Assembly: GCA_958296195.1 (NCBI GenBank)
Contig: OY282455.1
Location: 1,612,001 to 1,676,000, forward strand
Reading direction: 5' to 3'
From: an uncultured Pseudomonadales bacterium
GTDB lineage: Bacteria; Pseudomonadota; Gammaproteobacteria; Pseudomonadales; Azotimanducaceae
DNA length: 64,000 nucleotides
Part shown: positions 54,296-58,184 of the stretch, one piece after another
How the letters are laid out: each line of letters opens with the position of its first letter
Position numbering within the stretch: the stretch's first letter is position 1
Translations under genes and position numbers: made by a program
The notes under the pieces: generated by a model
The model's input: the letters and a program-made list of their open reading frames with translations, nothing else
Told to the model about the DNA's origin: nothing
The model's database searches: none

Positions 54296-55165
54296 ATGAA
54301 CATTCGCAACCTCATAGTCATCGCCATCGGCCTGGTCGCGGTGCTGTTGCTGCTGCAAAGCGTTTATATCGTGGACCAAACCGAACGCGCCGTGCTGCTG
54401 CGCTTCGGTGCGGTCAACAAGGCGGACATCGCGCCGGGGCTGCACTTCAAGTTGCCCATTGCCGAGGACGTCAAGATATTTGACGCCCGGGTGCTGACCT
54501 TGGACTCCAGCCCGGAGACCTACTACACCTTGGAGAAGAAGCCGCTTATCGTCGATTCGTTCGCCAAGTGGCGGATCGTCAACGTGCCCAACTACTACAC
54601 CGCCACTTCCGGCGACGAAGCCCGCGCCAACCGGGTGCTGCAGGAGCGCGTCAACGAGGGCCTGCGCAACGCGATCAGCCGTCGGGACATGCATGAGGTG
54701 ATCTCCGGGGAGCGGGACCAACTGATGCAGGAACTCACCGCCGACCTAAACCGGGCCATGAAGGAGGCCACCGGCGTGGAGGTCGTTGACGTTCGCGTGA
54801 AACGCATCGACCTGCCCACGGAGGTCTCCACTTCGGTTTATGAGCGCATGAACTCCGAGCGTGAGATCGAGGCCCGGCAGTACCGCGCCCAAGGCCAGGA
54901 GCTGGCGCTGGGAATTCGCGCCGACGCGGAACGGCAAACCGTGGTGATCGAAGCGGAGGCCTACCGCGAAGCGGAGCAGATTCGCGGCGACGGGGACGCC
55001 AGATCCGCCTCCATCTACGCCTCCGCCTTCAACAAGGATCCGGAGTTCTACGAATTCACCCGCAGCCTCAACGCCTACGCCAAGGTGTTCGGCGAAAAGA
55101 GCGACATGCTGGTGCTGGACCCCAACAGCGAGTTCTTCAAGTATCTGAAGAGCGGTGAAGGCTAG
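54296..55165 (+). CDS. hflC: FtsH protease modulator HflC
   Basis: 289 residues. N-terminal transmembrane helix (LIVIAIGLVAVLLLLQSVYIV), then the SPFH domain (DQTERAVLLRFGAVNK) and a helical C-terminal part. Partner of HflK, 14 bases downstream of it with GGAGCA as ribosome site. Confidence 0.96.
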   Translation: MNIRNLIVIAIGLVAVLLLLQSVYIVDQTERAVLLRFGAVNKADIAPGLHFKLPIAEDVKIFDARVLTLDSSPETYYTLEKKPLIVDSFAKWRIVNVPNYYTATSGDEARANRVLQERVNEGLRNAISRRDMHEVISGERDQLMQELTADLNRAMKEATGVEVVDVRVKRIDLPTEVSTSVYERMNSEREIEARQYRAQGQELALGIRADAERQTVVIEAEAYREAEQIRGDGDARSASIYASAFNKDPEFYEFTRSLNAYAKVFGEKSDMLVLDPNSEFFKYLKSGEG

Positions 55166-55350: not shown

Positions 55351-56745
55351 ATGAAATCCGAATTCTGGCGCTTGCCTGACGGGGTGGACGAACTGCGGCC
55401 GCCGCGCGCATGGGAGCTTGAACTCATCCGCCGCAAGGTGCTGGACACCTTCCGCAACTGGGGGTTCGACTACATTGAGCCGCCGCTCATCGAGTATCTG
55501 GACGCCTTGCTGGTGGCCGGCGGACGGGACTTGGATTTGCAAACCCTAAAGGCGGTGGACCAGCGCAGCGGGCGCCTGTTGGGAGTGCGCGCCGACCTCA
55601 CCTCCCAAGCTGCCCGCATCGACGCCAGCCGGCTGGGTGATCAAGGCGTGTCCAAGCTCTGCTACGCCGGGCCAGTGGTGCATGCCAATCCCCAAAGCCT
55701 GATGGATTCCCGGGTGCCCATCAAGGCTGGCGCGGAGATATTCGGGTCAGCGGCGCTGGAAACCGACGCGGAGGTCATCGCGTTGATGGTCGAGGTGCTG
55801 CAAGCCGCCGTCGGCGGGCGCCCGAAGGCCAGCAAGCACCGCTGCCCGATCGCCAACTGCACGACGGTTTTCCAAAAGAACGGCCGCGGCGGCTGGGACG
55901 GCCATGTGGCGTCCTTGAAAAACCACCCGGAGTGGCACCCGGAAGTCAAAGATCCCCAAGCGCGCAAGGAGTGCTTCAAGGCCGAATATCCAGAGTGGTT
56001 CAAAGACCCGGCGCCCAAGGCCGGCAAGCACCGCTGCCCGATCGCCAACTGCACGACGGTTTTCCAAAAAAACGGCCGCGGCGGCTGGGACAGCCATGTG
56101 GCGTCCTTGAAAAACCACCCGGAGTGGCACCCGGAAGTCAAGGATCCCCAAGCGCGAAAGGAGCGCTTCAAGGCCGAATATCCAGAGTGGTTCAAAGACC
56201 CGGCGCCCGTGGTCGTGCTTGGCAATATGGGCATTTACCGCGCCTTGACCCGCCCCCTAGGATTGGATGAAGACAGCGAGCATTCACTTTTCGCCGCGGT
56301 GCAGTGCAAGTCCGAAAACGACATCAGGGCCTTGGTGGACTCCGGCGGCTTGGCGGATCTGCTGGTTGCTCTGCCTAGGCTGATGGGCCACATTGAAGAC
56401 CTGGACGGCGCTTGCCTTGAACTAAGGGGCGCACCAGCGGAAGTGGGCCGGGAACTTGCCCGCCTGCAGCGCTTCGTTGGATTGGTCATGGATTGCTGCA
56501 CCAGCGTAGATCTGCGCTTCGACTTGGCCGAACTGGCTGGCTATGGCTACCACAATGGCCCGGTGTTCGCCGCCTTCCACGGCGGCCACGGCCAAGCGCT
56601 GGCCCGGGGCGGCCGCTACGACGGCATCGGCGCAACCTTCGGGCGGGCGCGGCCAGCCACGGGCTTTGACGTGAACCTGAAGCGGCTGCTGAATGGCGGG
56701 CCGCCGCCACCGGACAGGCTTCCCGCCGACTGGTTCAGGAAGTGA
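55351..56745 (+). CDS. hisZ: ATP phosphoribosyltransferase regulatory subunit HisZ with a tandem C2H2-like insert and short C terminus
   Basis: 464 residues from the ATG at 55351. HisZ is a HisRS-like paralogue that activates short-form HisG in histidine synthesis. The N-terminal 150 residues are normal (WRLPDGVDELRPPRAWELE, GVRADLTSQAARID, LCYAGPVVHA). At residue 159 two 64-residue repeats interrupt the protein; normal sequence resumes at residue 287 (VVVLGNMGIYRAL) and continues through ARGGRYDGIGATFGRARPATGF. Without the insert it would be about 336 residues, roughly 50-60 shorter than usual, because the C-terminal tail is missing. Whether the gene is functional is open, but there is no internal stop. 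Confidence 0.9.
   Translation: MKSEFWRLPDGVDELRPPRAWELELIRRKVLDTFRNWGFDYIEPPLIEYLDALLVAGGRDLDLQTLKAVDQRSGRLLGVRADLTSQAARIDASRLGDQGVSKLCYAGPVVHANPQSLMDSRVPIKAGAEIFGSAALETDAEVIALMVEVLQAAVGGRPKASKHRCPIANCTTVFQKNGRGGWDGHVASLKNHPEWHPEVKDPQARKECFKAEYPEWFKDPAPKAGKHRCPIANCTTVFQKNGRGGWDSHVASLKNHPEWHPEVKDPQARKERFKAEYPEWFKDPAPVVVLGNMGIYRALTRPLGLDEDSEHSLFAAVQCKSENDIRALVDSGGLADLLVALPRLMGHIEDLDGACLELRGAPAEVGRELARLQRFVGLVMDCCTSVDLRFDLAELAGYGYHNGPVFAAFHGGHGQALARGGRYDGIGATFGRARPATGFDVNLKRLLNGGPPPPDRLPADWFRK
55825..56208 (+). repeat. Two tandem 192-bp in-frame repeats encoding C2H2-like modules inside hisZ
   Basis: Unit 1 is 55825-56016, unit 2 is 56017-56208. They differ at only 6 of 192 positions by direct comparison. 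Each encodes 64 residues with C-x4-C-x14-H-x6-H (Cys165, Cys170, His185, His192 in unit 1; Cys229, Cys234, His249, His256 in unit 2), followed by a Pro/Trp-rich tail ending in EYPEWFKDPAP. The spacing resembles a C2H2 zinc finger. The insert is a multiple of three and keeps hisZ open. The nearest concept I know is coding palindromic or domain-inserting elements, but this module is not one I recognise. Confidence 0.95.
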
Positions 56746-56774
56746 TCTTGAAGCGTCTGCTGAACGGCGAGCCG
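56677..56774 (+). repeat. Imperfect out-of-frame duplication at the hisZ 3' end
   Basis: A 27-base stretch inside hisZ (56677-56703, encoding LKRLLNGGP) recurs at 56748-56774 just after the stop, with 4 differences. The 71-base offset is not a multiple of three, so the second copy is in another frame and runs on for about 30 codons. This points to a small rearrangement that may have truncated HisZ. Confidence 0.6.

Positions 56775-56885: not shown

Positions 56886-58184
<1,299 letters not shown>

Follow-up and report, generated by a model that had tools for sequence, protein, structure and literature searches.

The locus and its insert

The window, a stretch of 64,000 nucleotides from the genome of an uncultured Pseudomonadales bacterium (G000), contains on its forward strand a hisZ gene (55351..56745) encoding the regulatory subunit of ATP phosphoribosyltransferase, a protein of 464 amino acids that includes a 128-residue insert. 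HisZ is a relative of histidyl-tRNA synthetase (HisRS) without a tRNA-charging role, and HisRS-like motifs are retained in the product. The gene lies between two forward-strand genes that we take from their sequences to be hflC-like (54296..55165, upstream) and purA-like (56892..58184, downstream), in an order also present in a sister genome (G001) and in a genome of the same genus (G003). The product matches the Pfam family PF13393 with 285.9 bits in two stretches flanking the insert, and barely passes the NCBIfam model NF009086 (318.5 bits for a cut-off of 318). Its C-terminus is about 55 residues shorter than that of the G003 HisZ, a shortening common to G000 and G001. A 33-bp stretch around the hisZ stop codon (56742-56774) is similar to 56671-56703, where the final codons of the gene lie, with five differences by eye; this likeness is not among the repeats listed for the window.

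The insert comprises two direct repeats of 192 nt (55822-56013 and 56014-56205), adding 384 bp to hisZ and keeping its reading frame. Both repeats encode a unit with the pattern C-x4-C-x14-H-x6-H. Unit 1 (55825..56016, forward strand) covers HisZ residues 159-222, with C165, C170, H185 and H192 as putative ligands, and unit 2 (56017..56208, forward strand) covers residues 223-286, with C229, C234, H249 and H256. In the register starting at 55822 the units differ at 7 nt, four of the differences being silent and three changing an amino acid, and in the register starting at 55825 they differ at 6 nt, because one difference falls in a boundary codon outside the latter register. A first-pass annotation of this DNA had described an in-frame 384-bp insert made of two C2H2-like units with 6 differences, and its description is accurate in the 55825 register. 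Its further observations are borne out as well: HisZ sequence continues on both sides, as the two flanking PF13393 stretches attest; the insert occupies a loop, which without the 384 bp has the length seen in relatives; and a recent duplication is indicated by units that differ at only 7 nt (55822 register).

The edges of the insert are marked by an 8-bp direct repeat, GGCGCCCG, with its left copy at 55817..55824 and its right copy at 56202..56209 on the forward strand, and the internal join between the units (56010-56017, same strand) reads GGCGCCCA. Such a repeat could have arisen as a target-site duplication; alternatively, it could be a short match at which illegitimate recombination took place. 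Inverted matches within the insert are short or imperfect only, and none amounts to a marked palindrome or to terminal inverted repeats. The insert has a GC content of 62.0% and a GC3 of 80.5%, and the remaining hisZ 65.1% and 78.6%, respectively.

Tandem units that are nearly identical are known to be prone to misassembly, and an artefact could account for at least the doubling. This explanation is weakened by the sequence differences between the two copies, three of them at the amino-acid level, and by the assembly of the genome in a single contig (4,311,735 bases, 98% complete). The insert is also exactly in frame, and its GC3 is set against a comparable value in the rest of the gene. We consider an assembly artefact very improbable.

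The insertion site and the unit in other genomes

HisZ was detected (E 1e-40) in 131 of the 206 genomes of the bacterial family. Only the G000 protein is longer by 128 residues, the insert being absent in the other 130, and an old domain fixed in HisZ, the reading that the first-pass annotation had set against its own, is discarded on this count. The insertion site is spanned in one piece in 129 of the 131 genomes, within −3 to +11 residues of the query; in G097, HisZ is divided between contigs and its second piece passes through the site. Loop length is uniform in 30 of the 31 other HisZ proteins aligned (the 30 best-scoring loci and G085).

At the insertion site the G001 HisZ carries 11 additional residues, including QYPCPLE, which resembles the start of the finger at another locus, L012 (QYPCPID). 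These residues, few and chosen after the fact, are possibly the relic or scar of a finger. Scores against the finger profile equal to or above that of the G001 14-mer were reached by 8 of 12,319 14-mers (in three places) drawn from six-frame open frames of at least 250 residues in the window with the insert masked, by 10 of 20,000 random 14-mers and by 3 of 5,000 shufflings of the G001 peptide. G000 and G001 are sisters with support of 99/95 in a tree of 32 HisZ sequences. A simple account would place a single insertion before the split of the two lineages, followed by partial loss in G001 and later doubling in G000; an unrelated indel in G001 is another possible explanation of the 11 residues.

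Throughout the G000 genome the unit was found in hisZ only, as two adjacent copies; a third match (E 0.8) contains a stop codon and was taken as chance. An alignment-based search of eight other genomes of the genus returned no unit at E 0.001. Weak single-sequence matches in G003, G005 and G018 (E 0.004-0.007, with values of 0.0055 in G003 and 0.0069 in G005, both of the genus) did not recur at E 0.001 with the alignment and were dismissed as chance. The alignment search located the unit in three of the 206 genomes of the family (G000, G013 and G212). Of 398 genomes sampled from the phylum, one had it, G000 itself, and of 396 sampled from the phylum to which the acidobacterial genome G628 belongs, four did; absence in both samples is less sure because at most 16 candidates per genome were scored.

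A scan of a genome collection yielded 14 loci with the unit, and two scans of viral contigs yielded one locus each (L022 and L087); scans of this type begin from short conserved patterns and miss divergent copies. L087 has the same sequence as the cellular locus L013, and the genes beside the finger there are, we presume from their sequences, phage-tail-like. In a third viral scan the L022 protein retrieved only its own contig, and it had no relative among 50,697 phage records. Searched at E 0.1, 72,556 plasmid records and the same 50,697 phage records gave no match for the unit itself, and carriage by plasmids or phages was rejected on these searches. A protein combining the finger with a DUF429-like domain (see below) had no match in the phage records and one partial match in the plasmid records, where the homologue is annotated as a DUF429 protein.

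These distributions bear on the proposal, made in the first-pass annotation, that the unit is a mobile protein-coding module spreading by in-frame insertion, similar in concept to Rickettsia palindromic elements and, as far as that annotation could tell, unrelated to them in sequence. Rickettsia palindromic elements lie in frame in housekeeping proteins, are dispersed over many genes and are palindromic, whereas the HisZ units occupy one locus as two adjacent copies without a marked palindrome; copy number, palindromy and host range all speak against an element of this type. PARCEL elements are described in the available part of PMC2996958 as 25-residue repeats with dyad symmetry that form variable-number tracts in ORFs without assigned function. 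They are also in-frame coding repeats in tandem with a punctate distribution, but the HisZ units are 64 residues long and show no marked palindrome.

The in-frame position, the tandem copies, an 8-bp direct repeat that might stem from target-site duplication and a patchy occurrence (one of 398 and four of 396 genomes, with at most 16 candidates scored per genome) would all suit a mobile module. Against it, the 4.31-Mb contig holds no copy outside hisZ and the eight congeners none at E 0.001, and the 17 other carriers re-searched (15 genomes and two viral records, with 150 of 210 candidates scored in G629) have one unit apiece. Marked palindromes and terminal inverted repeats are lacking, and the two finger units account for all 384 bp, leaving no room for a recombinase. 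A spreading module is in our judgement highly unlikely. The other suggestion of the first-pass annotation, a domain newly acquired by HisZ, agrees with the empty site in relatives and with the homology of the unit to fingers elsewhere.

A C2H2-like finger family and its DUF429-like carriers

When the window's units are left out of the profile, it still scores each of them at 92 bits, and it gave nothing above −0.4 bits on 20 shuffled and one reversed HisZ sequences; the finger match in HisZ is therefore not due to chance. Used as a single query, the unit matched G013 with an E-value of 5.2e-18. The four ligands (C, C, H, H) are invariant in all 18 aligned units, and both window units keep the other family-invariant residues as well. 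Identity of the other units to unit 1 ranges from 36 to 55% in the alignment and reaches at most 59% by tblastn, with no close donor among the genomes searched. The spacer between the second Cys and the first His is x14 in the window units and x13 in all 16 others. By its sequence, the unit is a member of an unnamed C2H2-like finger family otherwise located behind a DUF429-like domain.

None of the family models searched with the units to a limit of E ≤ 1 (Pfam, NCBIfam for unit 1 only, PHROGs and PADLOC) matched above its curated cut-off, and the best E-value was the 0.06 of a Pfam match that is itself under the cut-off; one Pfam finger model matched full-length HisZ at E 0.0028, short of its cut-off. 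Against PDB sequences the profile had 18 matches at E ≤ 5, with YY1 first (whole-chain E 2.7e-4). Ten of them carry zinc finger in their name, and we take the other eight (REF6 twice, KLF5, TFIIIA twice, Sp1, MyT1 and KIAA0535) to be zinc-finger proteins too. No individual stretch of these matches was significant, the best being a YY1 stretch at E 1.6, since the chain score sums several fingers, and the alignment to PDB fingers consists mainly of the Cys hairpin.

It is this hairpin, CP-x-x-x-C-x-x-x-F, that classical C2H2 fingers such as those of YY1 have in common with the unit. Classical fingers have a 12-residue spacer and H-x3-5-H, whereas the family has 13-14 residues from the second Cys to the first His, H-x6-H and an extra helical tail, and the C-x4-C-x14-H-x6-H of the window units departs from the canonical spacing. 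Bacterial zinc fingers of the Ros/MucR type are likewise Cys2His2 domains, of about 58 residues with one further helix; their spacing, given in the available part of PMC9779718 as C-x2-C-x9-H-x3-H-H, also differs from that of the units.

AlphaFold predicts for one unit two strands (5-7 and 16-18), a helix (25-30) and two more helices, with a mean pLDDT of 76.8. Foldseek found nothing significant with this model (best E 4.1), the fingers of KLF4 and ZNF692 being among nine weak matches. In the model of a DUF429-finger protein (L009), pLDDT is 82-96 in the finger and below 50 in the preceding linker; YqgF and related folds rank first in Foldseek with this model, with no match below E 0.001. We infer putative zinc binding because the ligands are invariant, and each unit would form its own fold, a beta-hairpin, helix and helical tail around one zinc ion, on the surface of HisZ.

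Outside the window, a DUF429-like domain precedes the finger in all 17 cellular loci fetched (L008-L021, L024, L116 and L117, where L015 is the G013 locus and L087 was left out as a copy of L013). Domain and finger share one frame in 15 of them and lie in different frames in the remaining two, L010 and L117. PF04250 matched one of the four DUF429-like proteins tested, that of L009, at the cut-off. These proteins and the window units are alike in the finger itself, with the same 60-position profile and four ligands, but the former carry a single copy, with an x13 spacer, which follows a linker and lies at the C-terminus or close to it, whereas the two x14 copies described here sit inside HisZ and not behind a DUF429-like domain. 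A search of G000 with a DUF429-finger profile at E 1e-6 matched the two finger units within HisZ only.

The available part of PMC3985635 groups DUF429 with RuvC and YqgF in a single clade of the RNase H-like superfamily, and deems nuclease activity of DUF429 proteins likely and their mobility unlikely, which adds to the case against a mobile module. The only partners of DUF429 named in that part are NUDIX and RelA/SpoT, and a fusion to a finger is not mentioned there. In the literature covered by our search, a scope outside which most subscription journals fell, we found no description of the finger, of its partnership with DUF429 or of its capture by HisZ.

Several carriers and relatives depart from the common arrangement. 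At L012 (1948-3804), one protein combines a DUF429-like domain, the finger and a SLOG cluster 4 (TIGR00725) domain. The 175-aa protein of viral contig L022 (2818-3345) holds the finger without a DUF429-like part, its host protein thus differing from the others. At L109 (G224, from the family of the window's genome), a DUF429-like domain without the finger follows another domain, presumably NUDIX/MutT-like to judge from its sequence. At L083 (13953-16871, in G013), the gene immediately downstream of the DUF429-finger gene is, as we take it from its sequence, type I restriction-modification methylase-like. Inspected by eye, the neighbourhoods of DUF429-finger genes have no partner common to all, and L016 and L020 have a similar upstream gene in common. 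In G008, of the same genus as G000, a decayed DUF429-like fragment (L112, 1492-1620) shows 49% identity over 43 residues and an in-frame stop, with no finger relic beside it and, downstream, small genes that we presume to be like DUF433/DUF5615-type pairs. This fragment suggests that DUF429-like genes have been present in the genus.

HisZ function and the nature of the insert

Within the genus, HisG frames are short (232-259 aa) in the three genomes that have HisZ and long (335-390) in the six that lack it, the long form having been read by eye in L046 and L050 and from frame length in the others; the single PF13393 match in each of the six is taken as HisS. G000 has a single HisG match, and its frame is of the short type. 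Because short HisG goes with HisZ and long HisG without it across the genus, HisZ is probably in use in G000. As described in the available part of PMC9734150, short HisG is activated by HisZ and is active alone, the histidine pocket lies on HisZ and a HisZ tetramer forms the core. In G000, HisZ would keep its part in activating the short HisG and in sensing histidine.

Unique changes in the HisZ core, counted with G003 as outgroup, number 33 in G000 and 17 in G001 (p 0.024, binomial 0.033, both uncorrected for the four genes compared). No similar excess is seen in HflC (8/6), PurA (14/11) or HisG (10/6), HflC and PurA being cut by the ends of the G001 locus. The faster change of the HisZ core may reflect adjustment to the insert or relaxed constraint. 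Taken further, hisZ could be decaying in the G000 lineage, with the insert marking a gene on its way out. The relative-rate result, the long HisZ branch (0.71 vs 0.30), the C-terminal shortening common to G001 and the narrow pass of NF009086 are compatible with decay, but the frame is open over 464 codons, the HisRS-like motifs and the PF13393 match are kept, the one HisG match is of the short form that pairs with HisZ, and G001 has an equally short C-terminus without two fingers. We regard decay as unlikely.

The insert may instead be a neutral passenger: a finger in an exposed loop, harmless and without a function in HisZ, perhaps brought there by illegitimate recombination at the GGCGCCCG match. 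The direct repeat at both edges, a loop whose length differs in G001 too and the faster change of the HisZ core are in line with a passenger. The conservation in both units of the four ligands and other family-invariant residues, the open frame and the retained second copy argue against it, although the argument from retention is weak because the second copy is young. A passenger seems to us quite possible, at somewhat short of even chances.

Our favoured reading, which we hold to be likely, is that a C2H2-like domain was newly captured into a loop of HisZ and then duplicated, giving surface fingers on a working enzyme subunit. As regards function, we think that HisZ works and that the fingers are predicted zinc-binding surface domains, a silent passenger being nearly as likely. 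The captured domain would have been a C2H2-like finger like those that follow DUF429-like (RNase H-like) domains, taken up in frame between the helix EVIALMVEVL and the strand VVVLGNMGIY of HisZ. The 11 extra residues of G001 indicate that capture may predate the G000/G001 split; the head-to-tail duplication would have followed later, in G000. Elsewhere the finger sits mostly at the end of nuclease-like proteins, which suggests that a domain was captured and duplicated, and not that an element jumped.

The fingers would most likely contribute a surface contact inherited from this nuclease-like origin, speculatively with nucleic acid or protein. In a stronger version, each chain of HisZ would have gained two fingers that bind nucleic acid, making eight in the tetramer, and the histidine-sensing complex would bind RNA or DNA as well, a reading that we regard as unlikely; if true, it would connect gene expression with the supply of histidine or with zinc status. 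The kind of event proposed, insertion of a domain into a loop and its tandem duplication, is already known. The hisZ locus offers a clean case of a small bacterial domain placed within a core metabolic protein whose relatives have an empty site, together with a possible scar in the sister genome and a young duplication, and it brings out an unnamed finger of C2H2-like type that is joined to DUF429-like proteins. Separately, the HisZ and HisG comparison reveals that the type of ATP phosphoribosyltransferase, HisZ with short HisG or long HisG alone, switches below the genus level.
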